From: Sipunculus nudus | Taxonomy: Eukaryota; Annelida; Sipuncula; Golfingiida; Sipunculidae | Direction of reading: 5' to 3' | DNA length: 64,000 bases | Assembly: GCA_026874595.1 (NCBI GenBank) | Contig: CM049308.1 | Coordinates: 26,834,367 to 26,898,366 of the forward strand | Part shown: piece after piece, positions 1 to 24,425 of the stretch | How positions within the stretch are numbered: the first letter of the stretch is position 1 | Layout: every line of letters starts with the position of its first letter | Translations under genes and position numbers: made by a program | The notes under the pieces: model-generated | What the model was told of the DNA's origin: nothing | The model's database searches: none | The model's input: only the letters and a program-made list of their open reading frames with translations

Positions 1-600
1 TTTTTTTCTCCTTTTTACATATTTGTGTTAATTATTGGAATATTCCCTGTTGTAAGGAAATGATTATTGTGCATTTCACTATGTCACATTCAGCAGTAAG
101 TCCCATGCCATACTTTGCCTGTTACAATATCTAGTGCTATACATTTTAAGATTTGCCAAATGCCATATTAGGCCTTATTCTTATACTGTGGGCAGTCCTT
201 TTTTCACGTAGATACCAAATTCCCTATATTTGCGAAATGGAAATGATCGCGAAAAGAAAACCTGACTACACATGTTAAGATTTGTTTATACTACAGACTC
301 AGAGGCAGATCAAATAAATTGTTAATAATATTTTATATTATCTGCCTATAAGGAACAAGAAATTGCACTCTTTCGATGTAATCTAGGTCTTAATCAAATG
401 GTAAATATTTTGCATGAATAGTAAAAATAATAAAAACAATTAAGGATAAATTATATATATAGTTTACTGTATGGTGATATTGCAAAAATTGAGCCTCGCG
501 TAACACCGAAACAGTGGAAATCTCTAAATTTTAACCTGGCGAACATGAAGCCAGCCACAGTATATTGTATGTTGTGGTTGCCGGACCTTGGGACATATCA
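1..600. other. AT-rich stretch, no gene seen
   Basis: No long open frame and no recognisable element. The sequence is AT-rich and non-repetitive up to the minisatellite. Nothing here supports a feature. Confidence 0.5.
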
Positions 601-606
601 AAAGCC

Positions 607-872
607 GTCACTCACTCAAGTCAGGATTGTCACTCAATGAAGTCAGGATTGTCACTCAATGAAGTCAGGATTGTCACTCAATGAAGTCAGGACTGTCACT
701 CAATGAAGTCAGGTTTGTCACTCGATGAATTCAAGACTGTAACTCAATAAGGTCATGAGTGTCACTCAATGAAGTCAGGATTGTCACTCAATGAAGTCAG
801 GATTGTCACTCAATGAGGTAAGGATCGTCATTCAATGAGGTCAGGATTGTCGCTCATTGAGGTCAGGATCAG
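607..872. repeat. 22-bp minisatellite, about 12 units
   Basis: A head-to-tail array of a 22-bp unit whose core reads GTCACTCAATGAAGTCAGGA. Central units are almost identical. Units around 715-770 and at the right edge (815-870) carry several substitutions, as expected if outer or older units drift while central units homogenise. It lies just upstream of the promoter-like region at 0.96 kb. Confidence 0.93.
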
Positions 873-959
873 AGGTAATTGTTATTACCTACCCAGCGTC
901 GTGTACCATATTACTGTCCAACCCGCCGGTTCCAGATGGATGTGCCACATGCTGGTGAC

Positions 960-1001
960 CGGTGACGTCACTTAACCACCACGTGACCAACAAGATGGCT
1001 G
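960..1001 (+). promoter_or_regulatory. TATA-less promoter-like cluster: CRE, E-box, YY1-like site
   Basis: A perfect CRE palindrome TGACGTCA lies at 963-970, an E-box CACGTG (within CACGTGAC) at 980-985, and AAGATGGCTGGC, close to the YY1 consensus, at about 993-1004. In animal housekeeping promoters, CREB/ATF and E-box sites often lie just upstream of the start, and YY1 sites often lie just downstream in the 5' UTR. No TATA box is seen. The order and spacing fit a start around 985-995, reading rightwards into the candidate exon ending at 1051. The motifs are seen directly. Promoter function is inferred. Confidence 0.5.
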
Positions 1002-1041
1002 GCCCCAGGAATAGCGTGTCTGTGTTGAACTTCATTCTACA

Positions 1042-1462
1042 ATGTTTCAAGGTAAATTATTATAAAATGATTCCGTAACATGATAACTAAAAACACATTC
1101 CTTTACCTAGTCCAAAAGAATCAAATTTCAAATAATATATCACCACAGGTACTGAAAGCCCTCATCCAATTTGTTTAGTCGCTGTTCCAGCTGACGGACA
1201 ACAAATGTGCAAACACTTGAAAATGAGCTTCCCTGGATTAATTCCAAAATACACAAAACATCCTGTCTCAAAGCACATCTCTGTTAAAAATGTCACTGGA
1301 ATACCAGTACATAAGCATTTGTTCTGGGAAAACTATATAAACAAACACAACCACAAACATTTAATGAATATTGATTTTTTTCTGTTGTTTTTTCATTATT
1401 TATGTTATATATATGTTATATTGGATATAACATGCTTACACGAATATTGGATGGACCCATAG
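1042..1462 (+). CDS. candidate small two-exon host gene, 107 aa, unknown function
   Basis: Exon 1 would end at 1051 (TTTCAAG followed by GTAAAT, a good 5' splice site). Exon 2 would start at 1149 after CACCACAG. Joined, ATG at 1042 gives MFQ-G-TESPHPICLVAVPADG and continues without a stop to TAG at 1460-1462 (324 nt, 107 codons). The second half is Lys/His-rich (HKHL occurs twice) and ends in a hydrophobic stretch. I do not recognise the family. An upstream ATG at 995, inside the YY1-like motif, opens a second frame that with the same splice would end after 28 codons, so it would act as a uORF. AATAAA signals follow at 1613. The splice, frame and polyadenylation signals are seen, but the gene is inferred. 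The C-terminal part after about residue 75 is low-complexity and may not be coding. Confidence 0.35.
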
Positions 1463-1612
1463 AAGATTAAGGGTTCATGTGTGTGTATGTGTGTGTGGGG
1501 GGTGGGGGGATGGGGGGTAGGGGGGGCGAATGATATTAAATACGTGGTAGGCAGAATGTAAAAAATTGTGATAAATGTGTACAGATCTATGTACCATGCA
1601 ACACTGTAAAAA

Positions 1613-1618
1613 AATAAA
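1613..1618 (+). terminator. polyadenylation signal AATAAA
   Basis: An AATAAA hexamer lies about 150 bases after the stop of the candidate gene at 1042-1462. Further AATAAA/ATAAAG-type hexamers lie around 1655-1670. It is compatible with the 3' end of that transcript, but such hexamers are common in AT-rich DNA. Confidence 0.35.
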
Positions 1619-1639
1619 TGTTTCTGTATTAAAATTAAC

Positions 1640-2225
1640 ACACATGCCTCTAGAATGAATAAAATAAAGTTAAATGAGTCGTTTATCTTGTTTTATTTCT
1701 TATTCGAAATACATAAGGGAGGAGGCCCCCTCCCCGGTGCGTACGAATTGCATGTTCTCCTAAACATGACGAGACAATTTAACAAATGCTTCATTTCATG
1801 TTTACGTATGTAAACTTTTACAGCTTACCGAAAATGTAGCCGAGGTACTCCTTTATGTTATTTCCGCTATGCCCATTCACGCTTCCCTGTTATGCCATAA
1901 AGGCCGTTTACTTGATTTACGTCTCAGTTACACAGTTATACACAACAAGATATATCCGTGTGCCACGTACAAACACATCTTGTATATATTCATTAAGGTA
2001 TATAAACATTTGCGATAATATGTGCATTTTCTCAAGTTTATGGTTCATATCGGCTGAATACGAAATTCTCCAAACCGAAATTACCCATCCCGGCACAAAT
2101 ATTTACTATCTCCAAATCACCTGGATTGTTCTTTCTGTGAGTAAACACATCTCTCGTGCGTCTGCTTACCATAAAAAACATAACTGCATGTCCGGTCATT
2201 CGCGACAACTCCCAATAAAAAGAAG
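1640..2225. other. no gene seen
   Basis: A 129-codon open frame at 1855-2244 runs into the terminal repeat of the transposon at 2228, has no family resemblance and is probably chance. Nothing else is recognisable. Confidence 0.4.
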
Positions 2226-2227
2226 TA

Positions 2228-2964
2228 CAGTCCAACCTGTCTAAACGACCACCTCTGAAATGCGGGCACCTCGCAGTTACGACCATGCACTAGATATCAG
2301 TCCCTTTTGAAATTCCGTTATATTATCTATAGATAAAACCTGTGAAATACGACCACCTGGCTATTACGGATTACGGGCAGTTTTTAATGACCAAAGTGAC
2401 ATATTCCTAATTAATTGACCTGCCTAATGCGGGCACTCTTTGTGCTACTCACTGACCAGCGCTGACCGGTCGGTTGATTGACCATGCGTGAAGTTGCGGT
2501 CACTTGCACCGCTCTCTGTTTGTTTTACTGGTGTGCGTGTGTACAGAGCACAGACTGGTGATTATTGGCACCCGAGGCCGACCCTGGGTCTCGAGCCCCA
2601 GGCGGGCAATGTGAATGGCTGACACGACCTATTAATCCACATGAATGGAGGTATCCCAAAATTAATCTTTGATCTGTGCCTCTGTGATCTGTCTTTGATC
2701 TATTCAGTGCATTACATCAAATTACACAGATAAATACATGTACATTTGTGTGCATTTACAAAATACATGTAACACAAAAATCTCTCCCTTCAGCAAATAT
2801 GTTTTTATTTATAGTCATAATGGTCTAATATGTATATTTCCGTCATACATGTCAGCTAGATTTGTGCAGTTCCTAAATGGTCAGAACCTGTCAAATACGA
2901 CCACCTGTCTATTACGACCACTTTGCCTAGTCCCTTGGGAGGTCGCATTAGACAGGTTCGACTG
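2228..2964. mobile_element. non-autonomous pogo/Tigger-like DNA transposon, 737 bp, TA target site
   Basis: The ends form inverted repeats: CAGTCCAACCTGTCTAA on the left, and the complement of TTAGACAGGTTCGACTG on the right. TA lies immediately outside both ends (2226-2227, 2965-2966), the target duplication of Tc1/mariner/pogo elements. Degenerate subterminal copies of a TGCGACCACCT-type motif recur near 2346-2365, 2425-2435 and 2893-2945. There is no transposase frame, so it must be mobilised in trans. A perfect hairpin CCTGGG...CCCAGG lies at about 2583-2600. It belongs with the related but longer element at 25,811, whose termini also begin CAGTC. Confidence 0.8.
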
Positions 2965-3099
2965 TAATTTGAAAGATAAATACATAAGGAACACTGATTG
3001 GAAGTTTGTAAAACCGTGGTTTGTGAATTCGCGAGGTGTTTATATGTTTTATGTTTATACACTGTATTTAGCACCATTGATCAGGTGATCGCGCCTTAA

Positions 3100-3566
3100 A
3101 GCTGCCCTTTCACCTACCTTTTGAAATGAATTTATGTGATTTCTGGCTTCCCCTGTGTATATTACTAACGATGTTCGGGTAATTTTGGTAGTAAAAAAAT
3201 TTAAATAAGGCCTTCACGAGGGACGTGTGAACTTGTTGATTAACAACATGTTTGTAAACACAGCATTGTCGACAAACGGGTGAAACATGTAACCTAAAAG
3301 GTGTTAGGTTGCATTCTTGCGGAGTTTGAAAGGTCACTTGTTGCAAAACGCCATTTGTAAAGCTCTGGCTTATCTGACTTGCTGCCAGATGCCCTTGTTG
3401 AATTTGTTTTGATTATTTTACCGGGCCCCCCACATATTATACACACGTTGATATGAACAAAACAAGAAGCCTATGTGTGATGATATCCACGTTTTCTGGC
3501 CTATTTTTATGAAAGCTCCAAGGGATTACCTAAGTTTATAAAAGTGAGATAGTTGACTGGGCCCCT
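3100..3566 (+). mobile_element. 467-bp TTAA-flanked dispersed repeat, copy 1
   Basis: The segment is bounded by TTAA at 3096-3099 and 3567-3570. Its ends are imperfect inverted repeats (AGCTGCCC left, GGGCCCCT right). A truncated copy in opposite orientation lies at 34,046-34,467, where AGGTGCCC next to TTAA is again preserved. TTAA target duplication is typical of piggyBac-type and Kolobok-type transposition. No transposase is present. The assignment to either superfamily is inference. Confidence 0.65.
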
Positions 3567-3570
3567 TTAA

Positions 3571-4330
3571 ATGCAAGCTTTTTTCCACGCGTGTAAACAA
3601 GTAAGCAAATGGTTTCAGTACCAAATATTGACCGATATCATAACATTTTAAGGAGGAAACACTATATTCTTGAATATCAACATAGCTGGTATGTGAATAG
3701 GAACCTTTAATCCTGCGTTCATATACCTTTAAGTAATCTTATCGGGTAAAAATAAAATCCGTGCATGCTTGTACATTTTACAGCTGACGAATAGTTTGCT
3801 TACTTAAGACAAATCCATCTCTGTTGGATATATGGTGCATTTCGTTGACGGATAGATCCTGCTTGTTTTACTATGAAACATTCTTGAAACATTCTTAGTG
3901 TACGAAATTTTCCGCAATTATGAAATCTCGATTGGCCTGATATAAAAAATTTGGATGGAAAATATAAATTCGGAAATGTAGATAACCAAGATGTAAAAGA
4001 ACTTTAAATCAGAAGTTTGGTTTTTATTTATTCATAAGAATGGTATCTGTTCCAAATGGTATTCAATGCATTCACTATCAGGTATTCTCCCTCCTAGAGC
4101 TTTTAAAAAAACCCTAGCTGAAGGATGTTCATTGGTTTTAGTCCAGCCCTTGTACCCAAAACACGAATTTAATACATGTAAATATAAATAAATTAATTAG
4201 CGCTCCGGGATCCAACTTTACTTTTCGAATATGCTTGTATTCATGGTCTCCATTTTTAGAAGAATAAATGATTGATATGGTTATTTATGATATCTATGAT
4301 TGCTGGCATTGAGAATTTTTTGCCATGAGC
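3571..4330. other. AT-rich, no gene seen
   Basis: No open frame above chance and no inverted or tandem repeat recognised. Confidence 0.4.
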
Positions 4331-4339
4331 CAAAAACTA

Positions 4340-4390
4340 GGAGGGGGGGGGGGGCAAAATGGGGGCGCTTATTAGGTTTTATACGGTACA
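4340..4390. mobile_element. solitary transposon end, CCTAATAAGCGCCCC type
   Basis: After a poly-G run the sequence GGGGGCGCTTATTAGG...TACGGTA matches, in reverse complement, the left end at 45,135 (TACCGTATCGACCTAATAAG) and the right end near 47,055-47,080. Only one end is present here, so this is a fragment or an end whose partner has decayed. Confidence 0.55.
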
Positions 4391-4395
4391 TAAAC

Positions 4396-6005
4396 TTTTT
4401 ATCACAATCACACATATTGTCTAAACCATAGTATATGACTGCGGGTCTTCATGGAATTTACCAACACCAAATCAACCAGGCTTACAATATGAAACTGTCT
4501 GTCGACCTCGTCCGGATAACGATTATTTAAGGTTGCATGGGGCACCTGGCTGATGTTCAAACATGCAGCACCCCTTCCACCATAATGATTTCTAGTGTAA
4601 GCAAGCAAGATCTATAGATTTTATTTTTTTACTTATATTGAATGTAACGCATTCAGGCATACGTTTACCTACTGCAGCATTAAATGTGACAGATCTTAGT
4701 ACAAGGTCTAGTAACCCACAATGCACTGCGGATAGTCGGCAATCCCAGGTTCTCATCTCATATTAACGGTACTTATGGAATTTATTATAAAAACGAACAA
4801 TTCTTTGTCTTTTAAATAATATTTTAGGTATCCCTAAATATTATATAAAGACGGTGTCATCTCAGTTAAGACCCCCTTCATCCACTGCTGAACATCTTCA
4901 ATAACCACTTATATGGCGCCCCCTGACGGCCAGTGACTTTTTATAATGCTGTATACTGGATTCATATCGATCTCCATCAGGGGAGCCCGTAGATTAATGA
5001 AACTGAAATAATTCGGATGCTTCTGTCATTCTGTAATTCAAATATTTTATACTGCGCAGGTTGTGACTATAACTACTTGAGCAGACGACACATACGGCAG
5101 ACGACATATGCAGCAGACGATACCTATATACAGCAGACGACTGAATACAGATGGCCTGTGCGACCCACGATTTTACCGTGAAACATCACTGATGTATATA
5201 TTAACAGATAGATCTAGACATTGAATATAAACATGGCACACACATTGTGCACGCTAGCATGCATAAACCTTCGTGACAGCAGTACTGCCAAGGTAACCAG
5301 TGGTAACCGCCGATCGGACATGATAGCGGACCACTCACTATAGCTGCCAGGATCTAAAATTAGACTGCAGTATATGATAATAAAAAACAAAATGTACTGA
5401 TAATTACCTTACACCTGCTTGTCACTGATATAATCTGAATAATCGGAGGAGGCAGCGACATATGTTTCCTCAGCACATCGTCATGATGTTGCCTCATGCG
5501 TGTTCAGGCCAACATTGGCGAGGCAGACATAATAAATTCACGGGGAGTGCCTCAAACCCCAGTGACGTATCAACATGAACATAATTTCTTGACTATACTT
5601 TCGGTCTCGGTATTGATCGTCTTATTTCCGTGTTTGGGGACCCAATGATTGAGGTCGATATCCTAGCGTTGCCATGGTGACACTTATTGGCAAGTCCTTT
5701 GTCTCCTACCGTCATCTGGCGGGGAACCTAATCACTAAATACGAATGCAGAGTGACCGTGAAAACATAATAATATTTACAATATACTTCTTTCTTAAAAT
5801 TATCTTTAATTTATAAAAATTATATTATTTTTTCTACAATCTTAGCATTTGTGAATTGTTGTTTTACAACAAGTTAAATAATTAGAAAATGCTGCGTTTC
5901 ATTTTCAATAAACATTTATAATTTCCAATATCGGTACACATAAATTTCAAGCGCGACTGGTCAAAATTGTATCTATATTCCTGAAAAATATACAACTACA
6001 GTAAA
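4396..6005. other. no gene seen; short CAGCAGACGA repeats near 5.1 kb
   Basis: Four imperfect copies of a (g)cagacgaca/tac motif lie at about 5082-5140. Otherwise it is unremarkable AT-rich DNA with no supported coding. Confidence 0.4.
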
Positions 6006-14306: not shown

Positions 14307-15965
14307 TATTTGCAAGGCAAACAAGGCCCATGGCCTTGATGAAATACCAAAAGTTAATCTATTGATAACATTTTAAAGAAACTGTTGGGGCATGATGCAC
14401 GCTTACATGCAAAAAAAGAATTTAATGTTTTTGAATAATAACAATATTATACTTGTATCAGAAACACGATTGTGCAGTGAAAAACACCCAGAAATATATA
14501 GATGAAGACCTACCATCTACAAGCAACTGTTAGCTATGCTTAACTCTTCGCTACACTAATCGCTGTCTCTGTGGAATTCCCCTGCGTAATATTTGACAAA
14601 TCACATCGCAGGAATACCCAGCACAATCGAATGTTCTTCGAGGTTCCTGTCATATTGCACTGTGGTCGAAAATGCTTGGAAGCACATACTTTTCCAACCC
14701 CCGTAGGAATACACACGATGCAATCGTCCTTTCAAGACATTCTCCATACTAACTTGCTTATACGGCTTTAGGTCAGTAATCCCCCATTGTTAGCATATTT
14801 TTTTTTCAGTGCCGCAGGGCTTGACATGGACGCAGCCATGTTTGTTTACACGCTGAGCCAATCAGATTTCTTTTACCAGCTCTGCAGGGCGCAGGCATTT
14901 TGTTTACACGCTCAGCCAATGAAATTTTACCTTTCTCAACGCAAGCTGGCCAAACCTGAAGGCTCCTTTTATGTCTCACAGCGTGTGAGTGGAAGTTCAC
15001 CGGGAGGTCTAGCGCTGTGTTCAGAGCGTAGGAGAAACCCTAACTGTAAAATATTTCTTGTTTGAGTCAGGTTTATTGCTACCTATCAGCTACTAATGTA
15101 GGGAACATCTAGAAGTTCACCTTTCCAACGTATTGGTACAAAATGCCTTTCCGCGTTTGCCTGTCTGGAACAAGCGGAGAGGCGTTATTACGACTCCTGC
15201 CATCGATAACATTGTGTATTAATCAGATAGCTTCAGGTGTAAATATCAGTATAATTACCCGCTCTCTCTATAGATATTAACAGTGGCGCAATTTTGGGTG
15301 GACGAGGACTTCGACACCCCTTCCACACATAAACCACATTGAATCTCCCCCCCCCCCCCTCCGCCCTGTGCCTTTTCTCAGTATAGTGTTATAATAATAA
15401 TAATGTTATCAGTGTATGGTCGATACAGAACCAATTTCGGTGGGGGGTGGGAGGGGGAGGAGAATGTTTTCAGTTAATCGAAAATGTCCAATGTGTGTAC
15501 CAGCTGAAGGGTTGGGCGTGGGAGGGCGTCCACCTACTGCGGTGCAAGAAATATTTTAATTTTTTAATCACATTTTAAGCGATATTGAAGCAAACTGTAA
15601 ATTAGATAATAGGGAATAGCATCGCTTAAGAAACCAACAAAAAGTAAAAATGCTTTCCTTAAAAAAATCTTATCTATAAAACCTGCATATAAAACCTGCA
15701 TAATCTTTTTCTTTGAGCACCTAATAGCTCGGTTAACAGGATGGCCTGAAAACGGGGGAATCACATTATATTATCAGTCATCTCGCTATTTTTTTTATTA
15801 TGGAAACACTGAATTTTAATGAAATTAGGAAAAATTGCTACACTGTGATACACTTAACCAGCAATTGGTATTTTTTTACTAATTGCAGTTACATTCGATA
15901 TTTCATGACAAAATCACATTATTTTAATAAAAAAAAAACTAGTTGAAAGCTGTCACGGAATAGAC

Positions 15966-18873: not shown

Positions 18874-19077
18874 TTGCCAAATAGAAGGTCTGAGTACAAA
18901 GTTTGCTAGTTGAAAGTGCTTACGAAATGTTGTGAAAACCTGCTGACAGTGCGTTTTTTTGGCCCAGGGGGGTTTATGCTAGAAAATAGGGCTAGAGGGT
19001 AAAATCTTGATTTAGTTATATGAGATATTGTAGCAGGTATATTAGCCTTTGTAATTACACTAGTCTTAATTTCAAAT

Positions 19078-19623
19078 ATGCTAAATCACAAAGATAGACA
19101 ACAGGGAATATTTCCTGATAGGGAAAAATTAACGATAAGTTGCTTTAATGCAAGAAGAGCCTTCAGTTCATGTATCTTTATCTCTGATATATTGAATAGG
19201 TACAACATAGATATACAATGCCTAACAGAGCATTGGTTATTTCATGATAATTTGAAATTCCTGGATTTCTTAGACTGCGGATATTTTGCTTTTGCTAAAG
19301 CTGATTCAACACTTGACCCACTTGAACCATTTCGCAGGGGTAAGGCAGGTGTTGCCATTCTCTGTAAACGGAGTTTAACAAGTGCTATTACCTTGCTCCG
19401 TGATATAGAAAGTGATCGTATTATTGGGATCCGGTTAGATATTAATGGAAGAACACCTTTACACGTTATTTACGTGTATCTCCCAAGTTCAAACCATGAC
19501 TTGAATCTGTACAAAGAGTGTATTGATCAACTCTATGAGCTATATCTTCGGTATTCACTGGACGGCGAAGTTATTATAGCCGGTGATTTTAATTATGAAA
19601 TTAATGGTTTGAAATGCTCTTGA
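19078..19623 (+). pseudogene. LINE apurinic-type endonuclease domain
   Basis: The 181-codon frame shows the expected order of the exonuclease-endonuclease-phosphatase fold: ISCFNARRAF, CLTEHWL (catalytic Glu), RRGKAGVAILCK, IIGIRLDINGRTPLHVIYVY and IIAGDFNYEI (Asp-Phe-Asn). This domain nicks the target DNA to prime reverse transcription. The frame ends at 19,621-19,623, before the usual C-terminal SDH motif, and the link to the reverse transcriptase is shortened and broken. Confidence 0.85.
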
Positions 19624-22726: not shown

Positions 22727-24425
22727 ATCTGTCAAGTATTTACGAGAGAGTGTTTCTACTCCCTCGTCCAAAAAGTGTTTCTTAAAGACATAACAAGTGT
22801 TGGATAATTATTGAGCTATTGATTTTGTGTATATTTTTCAATATTGGTATTTGACAATATTTAATATAGGTCCCATTTATCACATTTTACCAGCAAATTC
22901 AAAGTATTATATAAAAGAAACAATAATAAATAGTACGGTAAATTTTTATTGGATATAAAAGAATTGTAATTGGCATTTTTATCGAATGAAAGAAAACAAG
23001 TTGGCAAATGAATATTTTATCGATATAATTTTGAAAAGACCCGCTAGATGGCTCTCCAGTAGGAGATCTATTCTTCAATCCTGTAAAAACGTAACTGCAC
23101 TAGCAGAGTAAGCGATGTGTATCTCAAATGTCACAGTGAGTGACAGGCGCGGATCCAGGATTTTTTACAGGGAGGGGTCAACGGATGTCAAGCATTAAAA
23201 TTTTCTTATAAAAAGGTCGTTGGTTGAGAGCGGGGGTGGGGGGGGGGGTGGGGGGGGGGGGGGAGGGGAGTCTCCACCCCCAAACCCCCGTCATGCATAA
23301 TATTTGTCTAAACAAAGGTCATTGATTGAGAACGGGGGGTTCGCTCTCGACCCCCCCCCCCCCCCAAAAAAAAAAAACCCCTCTGGATCCGCGCCTGAGT
23401 GACCTCTAAGTACAGTAAGCATAGGCTAACCAAGTTTACTCATTCTTGATATGGGATAGGTTAATTTTGATTGTATAATAATACTACAGTTAGAAACAAT
23501 TTTTTTCCACGAGATATCACAGATGGTTTTATCCGTGCTCCGGTGGATTTTCCCCTCATATTTGCTCGGCAAACAAGGCTGCTGGTCATGATGAGATACC
23601 AAAATTTTATCTGTTGATAACATTTTAAAGAGCCTGTTGAGGCATGATGCACACTTACATGCAAAAAGAACTGAATGTCTCTAATAATAACAAAAATATA
23701 CTAGTATCGAACAGGATTGTGCAGCGAAAAACATCTAGCAAAATATAGATGAAGACCTACGCTCCATAAGCAGCTGTTAAGGTATGCTCAACTATTCGCT
23801 ACACTAATCGCTGTCTCTGTGGAATTTCCCTGCGTTATATTTTTGCCCAATAATTGACCAATCACAGTGCAGGTATCGCCAGCAAAATCGGATGCTCTTC
23901 GAGGTGCCGGCCAATTTGCACAATTTGGAAGCACAGTCTTTTTCCACCTCGACCCCCCTCCCCTCCAGTTGGAATACACACGATGCAATCGTCCTTTCAA
24001 GACAGTCTCTATACTAACTTGCTGGTGGGGCTTTAGGTCAGTTATCCCCCATTGTTTGCATATTTCCTTTTTGCAGTGCCGCACGACCTTGTCATGGGCG
24101 CAGCCATGTTTGTTTACACGCTGAGCCAATCAGAAACCTTTTATCAGTAAGAAACCAACAAAAAGTCCAAATGCTTTCCTTTAAAATATAATCTTAAATA
24201 CCTGCATAATCTCTTTATTTAAGCACTAATCACATCATATTATCAGTCATTTCGCAATTTTATTCTTTACGGAAACTCTGCATTTCATTTATATCAGGGA
24301 AAATTGCTGCACTGTGACACATTTTAACCAGCAACTGTTTTTTTTTTACTTGCAGTTATAGCCTATATTTAATAACAAAATCACATTATTTTTATGAGAA
24401 AAACCTGGTTGAAAGTGTCTGTTGG
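22727..24425 (+). repeat. large dispersed block, copy B, with nested MITE
   Basis: Aligned with copy A (11,620-15,965). It lacks the LINE (junction at about 23,098: ACTGCAC-TAGCAGAG), has one unit of the 94-bp sequence instead of two, carries a MITE at 23,145-23,395, and is missing the 745-base segment between GAGCCAATCAG and TAAGAAACCAAC (joined near 24,150). Confidence 0.88.
23145..23395. mobile_element. hAT-type MITE with target-site duplication
   Basis: Inverted ends AGGCGCGGATCCAG / CTGGATCCGCGCCT are flanked by TGAGTGAC on both sides (23,137-23,144 and 23,396-23,403). The uninterrupted site TGAGTGAC exists in copy A at 14,039-14,046, so insertion is shown by comparison within the window. 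The interior is poly-G, poly-C and a second partial copy of the GGTCGTTGGTTGAGAGCGGGGG motif. The duplication can be read as 7 or 8 bases because the element end overlaps it. 8 fits hAT. Confidence 0.9.

Follow-up and report, generated by a model that had tools for sequence, protein, structure and literature searches.

A candidate short transcription unit with a TISU-like start codon

In the present study, a predicted unit of approximately 700 bp within a 64,000-nt stretch of DNA (the window; C3:26834367-26898366, within a 1.43-Gb assembly of 153 contigs) is tentatively interpreted as a short TISU-led transcript, which would be non-coding or encode a micropeptide, similar to the 5' ends of JPX and Cyrano; we place the probability of this reading slightly below even. 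In this interpretation, factors binding the CRE and the E-box, together with a YY1-type protein bound to the TISU-like element, would drive transcription from a start site approximately 5-30 nt before ATG 995. Splicing would join 1051 to 1149, and the transcript would be cleaved near 1680. Translation would begin mainly at the AUG within the TISU-like element and yield a 28-residue peptide; alternatively, an RNA that is otherwise non-coding would be translated only briefly at its 5' end. Little or no translation of an overlapping 107-codon frame would be expected. Since the stop codon of the 28-codon frame is located in the last predicted exon, nonsense-mediated decay is not expected.

Results

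Layout of the predicted unit and its putative promoter

The original prediction described a compact promoter followed by a small two-exon gene with a 107-residue product; the layout is supported by the present analysis and a CpG-poor stretch conforms to it, whereas the product is poorly supported, as described below. A CRE palindrome (TGACGTCA, 963-970) and a CACGTG E-box (980-985, inside CCACGTGAC), both exact matches and candidate sites on neither strand in particular, precede AAGATGGC (992-999), which includes ATG 995 and is present as a single copy in the window when both strands are considered. The three motifs together occupy 37 bases, in agreement with the prediction that a CRE, CACGTG, and a YY1-like element lie within 40 bases. 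Relative to the TISU-like element discussed below, the CRE ends 20 nt before and the E-box 5 nt before. A promoter-like segment of the plus strand at 891-1020, the boundaries of which were picked by us, is comparatively rich in G+C and CpG (GC 0.57, 8 CpG, CpG o/e 0.77) and lies between segments with CpG o/e values of 0.31 (541-890) and 0.38 (1021-1690). In a minisatellite at 607-869, a 22-bp unit (GTCACTCAATGAAGTCAGGATT) is repeated 12 times; the array ends approximately 95 bp upstream of the CRE.

Splice-like sites were found on the plus strand where a consensus donor and an acceptor 97 bases on had been predicted. The donor CAAG/GTAAAT ends an exon at 1051 and the acceptor CACCACAG/GT starts exon 2 at 1149, which delimits a predicted GT-AG intron of 97 nt (1052-1148; GTAAAT at 1052, CAG at 1146-1148) with a pyrimidine tract that appears weak by eye. 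Across 628 kb of strand, 135 donor-like sequences of the form [CA]AGGT[AG]A[AG] were counted. The polyadenylation signals expected after the frame are represented by three AATAAA matches at 1613, 1658, and 1663, followed by a T-rich stretch (1613-1668, plus strand).

A serious rival to a transcription unit, although one that we consider somewhat unlikely, is a chance assembly, in which the CRE, E-box, AAGATGGC, splice-like sites, and AATAAA coincide in AT-rich intergenic DNA that is not transcribed. The G+C content of the putative promoter (0.57) argues against coincidence, as does the motif trio itself, which appeared in 0 of 60 order-1 Markov windows when a CRE with the other two motifs within 60 bases on one strand was required. 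In the 1.43-Gb genome, the exact trio with gaps of up to 30 was present at 2 places, and its reversed control at 0. The second copy sits in an EGF-like open frame (by eye), which favors chance because it shows that such a coincidence does occur, and approximately one such copy per genome may plausibly be expected by chance. As a promoter module, the trio does not recur in this genome.

CpG contrast

A scan with a 600-nt window and an o/e threshold of 0.4 yielded 11 CpG-poor blocks, one of which (1001-1700, unstranded) coincides with the predicted unit. The CpG o/e of 985-1690 was 0.38 (8 CpG), and equally low values were found in 2.95% of the 706-nt windows of the surrounding domain, which has a median of 0.81; the 5-kb blocks of the window ranged between 0.57 and 1.12. 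CpG as low as that of exon 2 (532 nt) was found in 2.4% of domain windows, and that of the frame of exon 2 alone (312 nt) was matched by 6.7%. When the comparison was made with the whole 314 kb, a CpG-poor tract included, 30% of windows were as low as 985-1690. The TpG/CpA value of the predicted unit was 1.42, which was reached by 7.9% of windows.

Past the polyadenylation signals, CpG o/e was 1.2 at 1691-2350, 0.67 at 2351-3000, and 0.75 at 3001-5000, and the value of the first of these flanks is itself high. The body of the unit (1021-1690, 0.38) differed from this near flank with a Fisher p of 2e-7, for which the boundaries were chosen afterwards and each CpG was counted twice. The fit of the CpG-poor block to the predicted unit and the rise past the polyadenylation signals both count against a chance assembly. 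The segment 541-890, mostly made up of the 22-bp tandem array, is similarly poor in CpG (0.31), and the predicted unit is, therefore, not the only stretch with low CpG. The CpG contrast provides modest support for a transcribed unit.

According to a study on the oyster, CpG o/e correlated with measured methylation with a Spearman coefficient of -0.616, and evenly expressed genes were more methylated (PMC3840415). In the genome analyzed herein, a tract 60-185 kb upstream (C3, approximately 26649000-26774000) showed CpG o/e values of 0.18-0.50 in 5-kb blocks with sharp edges, and contained a 2-oxoacid_dh exon (L013:5655-5897; DLST by eye), which was the one match among five stretches given to Pfam. 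This tract may be a methylated-like gene domain. The three loci of an HD_3 gene, described below, had CpG o/e values of 0.65, 0.35, and 0.49, with 0.35 for its exon, and the EGF-like locus had a value of 0.72. The 2-oxoacid_dh exon in the CpG-poor tract and the low value of the HD_3 exon indicate that CpG depletion accompanies genes here.

TISU-like start codon and 28-codon frame

Regarding the start codon, the element CAAGATGGCTGG (991-1002, plus strand) agrees with the TISU consensus given in PMC5577775 (SAASATGGCGGC) at 10 of 12 positions. It carries SAASATGGC in full together with the invariant ATG, and thus counts as a TISU match. The upstream ATG at 995 had been placed inside the YY1-like motif, at the head of a 28-codon frame across the same splice, and this frame is present as described. 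Its first 19 codons (MAGPRNSVSVLNFILQCFK, 995-1051, plus strand) have a purine at -3 and G at +4 and end in phase 0, and the joined-frame translation closes with VLKALIQFV and the stop codon TAG at 1176-1178 (1149-1178, plus strand). What was regarded as a uORF inside a YY1-like site resembles a TISU start in its sequence. Matches of at least 10/12 numbered 32 in 314 kb on both strands, this element included, and a TISU match is consequently weak evidence by itself; this abundance of lesser matches is in keeping with a chance assembly.

In PMC2518114, TISU is presented as a YY1-dependent promoter element located up to +30; its AUG serves as the start codon in 64% of human genes that carry TISU, with a median 5' UTR of 12 nt for TISU genes. 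Initiation at TISU is described therein as exclusive in vitro and in vivo, with an undetectable leak to a downstream AUG on transfected TISU mRNA, and mutations in the flanks, including those on the 3' side, led to significant leakage (PMC2518114). If the behavior of human TISU holds here, ATG 995 would be the main start. Since the element at 991-1002 departs from TISU at two 3' positions, leakage is possible.

The 28-residue peptide matched 0 Pfam families, and its best E value against the PDB was 0.16. Most of the frames opened by 20 sampled perfect TISU sites were short (4-72 codons, read without splicing), and a length of 28 codons is, thus, unremarkable.

TISU elements elsewhere in the genome

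The perfect TISU 12-mer was found 1852 times genome-wide versus 85 times for its reversed control, the count of which is somewhat too low because it contains two CpGs versus one in the forward sequence. The sample of 20 sites consisted of every fifth of 100 listed, all on contig C1. A single repeat family accounts for eight of them (L034-L037, L043, L044, L046, and L047, the last being assigned solely on 31-47-nt matches), and part of the excess of perfect TISU sites is, therefore, repeat. MAAKMAA opens five of the eight frames in this family. Perfect CAAGATGGCGGC sites on C1 form inward-facing pairs 1.9-4.5 kb apart, with 7 pairs among the 100 matches listed (for example, 25458735/25460627, 34826947/34829840, and 52353901/52357860), and this is possibly a transposon family with YY1/TISU sites in its ends. 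The predicted unit was considered as a repeat copy and this was rejected: 940-1480 matched itself alone in a search that skipped common words. When 900-1200 was compared with the 20 sampled TISU sites, the best E value was 0.007 (L042, 25 nt), and it was 0.28 against the repeat family.

Of the 20 sampled frames, three were submitted to Pfam, and that of L051 (TISU 12/12) matched Kelch_HCF over 47 residues (E 3.2e-23); its 83 bits fall below the cut-off of 113 for the whole domain. The HD_3 gene (C5:47683077-47687882, minus strand), which we take to be HDDC2-like, has an apparent start at GAACATGGCAGC (TISU 11/12) and a first exon of 20 codons ending in phase 0, which was assigned by eye and has no Pfam match. 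It appears, therefore, that real genes of this genome can have TISU-like starts.

Search for a longer gene

The layout of the HD_3 gene bears on a second rival explanation, namely, that an ordinary but longer gene starts its coding sequence with MAGPRNSVSVLNFILQCFK and has more exons outside the predicted unit. The start context is good, the 19 codons reach a good donor in phase 0, and the HD_3 gene seems to be alike, by eye, in its TISU-like start and short phase-0 first exon; however, the two first exons did not resemble each other significantly in a shuffle test (p 0.075). At E up to 0.001, HD_3 was matched 3 times across the genome, each time on C5, and HD_3 domain exons adjoining the 995-1051 exon were not found. 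The possibility that the 995-1051 exon is copied from that of HD_3 was also rejected because the HD_3 gene is located on C5 with an exon 1 of its own (by eye). Pfam scans of the three frames of the plus strand over 951-45799 at E up to 0.05 returned an Exo_endo_phos domain near 19180 only; these scans covered locus L005 in one of the three plus frames, and may be escaped by short exons. Eighteen candidate phase-0 exons contained nothing recognizable by eye. Based on these results, we regard a longer gene with exons outside the unit as quite improbable.

Two other candidates were rejected. An antisense gene on the same promoter gave no Pfam match in the three minus-strand frames of window positions 1-1202, and the three minus-strand frames of locus L005 yielded one match below the cut-off (RSLD_CPSF6, E 0.031, 14.9 bits versus 27). 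No known RNA family or tRNA was found in the window.

The 107-codon frame

The open frame of 107 codons across the junction exists as predicted, and runs on the plus strand from ATG 1042 (1042-1051), which is inside the 28-codon frame in another reading frame, through 1149-1462 to the stop codon at 1460-1462; based on its composition and lack of relatives, it is probably little or not translated. Joined frames of at least 107 codons were obtained in 0.38-0.5% of 5000 Markov exon 2s with the splice sites fixed. Stop-to-stop frames of at least 108 aa were common, with 19 in the window and 3-11 in each of 10 Markov windows, and the fact that they arise in random sequence is consistent with a chance assembly.

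By the Fickett table and cut-offs, values below 0.74 are usually taken as non-coding. The whole 107-codon frame scored 0.53, which is non-coding-like, and 113 of the 155 frames of at least 100 aa within 314 kb scored at least as high; the value was 0.94 for its first 60 codons and, for comparison, 1.02 for an HD_3 exon of the same genome. The product was predicted to be of no recognized family, and the 104 residues encoded from 1148 on did match 0 Pfam families at E up to 10. The same residues had no relative in the PDB (best E 1), and a search for a paralogue in their own genome gave 11 additional matches at E up to 10, none of them convincing; the strongest (0.525) contained two stops. A non-coding-like frame without a family, PDB relative, or paralogue is also what a chance assembly would leave.

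The Lys/His-rich 107-residue protein is, thus, poorly supported as the product of the unit, and an arrangement in which it is translated from ATG 1042 while the 28-codon frame serves as a regulatory uORF is very improbable: the length of the joined frame (p 0.004-0.005 with the splice sites fixed), the Fickett value of its first 60 codons, the leakage that the 3' departures from TISU could permit, and the precedents of the USP12 TISU uORF and the JPX TISU AUG repressing downstream translation (PMC5577775) speak for it, whereas the whole-frame Fickett value, the absence of Pfam, PDB, and genome relatives, and a start inside the 28-codon frame, which reinitiation after that frame cannot reach, speak against it. 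A 28-residue peptide or non-coding RNA is more likely to be the product than the 107-residue protein.

Discussion

The short TISU-led transcript that we tentatively prefer may be compared with several known systems. The element resembles TISU as described in PMC2518114 in its AAG-ATGGC core, YY1-like character, invariant ATG, position just past promoter-like elements, and agreement at 10/12 positions, but differs at two 3' positions (TGG for GGC). The 5' end of the JPX lncRNA, as presented in PMC5577775, is similar in having a TISU-led short frame near the transcript start with limited translation afterwards; however, the JPX element was inherited from the coding ancestor USPL, and no such ancestor was found here. 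In the uORF of the USP12 5' UTR, from the same source, a TISU-led short frame also overlaps a second start in another frame, but the main frame of USP12 is a conserved protein, whereas no relative is known for the 107-codon frame described herein. According to PMC7798263, a TISU start codon opens a very short frame at the 5' end of the Cyrano lncRNA; Cyrano differs from the unit described herein in its perfect 12-base TISU and its frame of 2-3 codons. Cyrano is deeply conserved. Within the same genome, the HD_3 gene shares a TISU-like start (11/12) and a short phase-0 first exon (by eye), but has recognizable domain exons, and the two first exons are not significantly alike.

A stronger form of the preferred reading is that the unit represents a protostome counterpart of vertebrate TISU-led lncRNAs, in which a short single-copy transcript, with only its 28-residue TISU frame being translated, would function as a regulatory RNA or micropeptide. 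We consider this form to be unlikely. If true, it would suggest that the coupling of transcription and translation by YY1/TISU, its use in lncRNAs included, arose before the split between molluscs and vertebrates. If the unit is real, it represents a small addition to unannotated short genes. Of more use is the revised interpretation, in which an apparent uORF in a YY1 site may instead be read as a TISU start, and a different product is predicted. Nothing described herein is categorically new.

Other elements in the window

The stretch at 2223-2969 resembles a MITE-type element: its ends are inverted (arms of 22 nt with 91% complementarity) and enclose ACCTGT..ACGACCACC repeats. The Exo_endo_phos domain (E 4e-9) lies at approximately 19180-19596 in a frame at 19024-19623, and presumably represents a LINE-type endonuclease. 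A repeated element is present as a similar pair at approximately 14402-14879 and 23654-24147 (79% over 511 aligned columns), and AAACATGGCTGC adjoins a CCAAT-like ATTGGCT (minus strand) in both copies.
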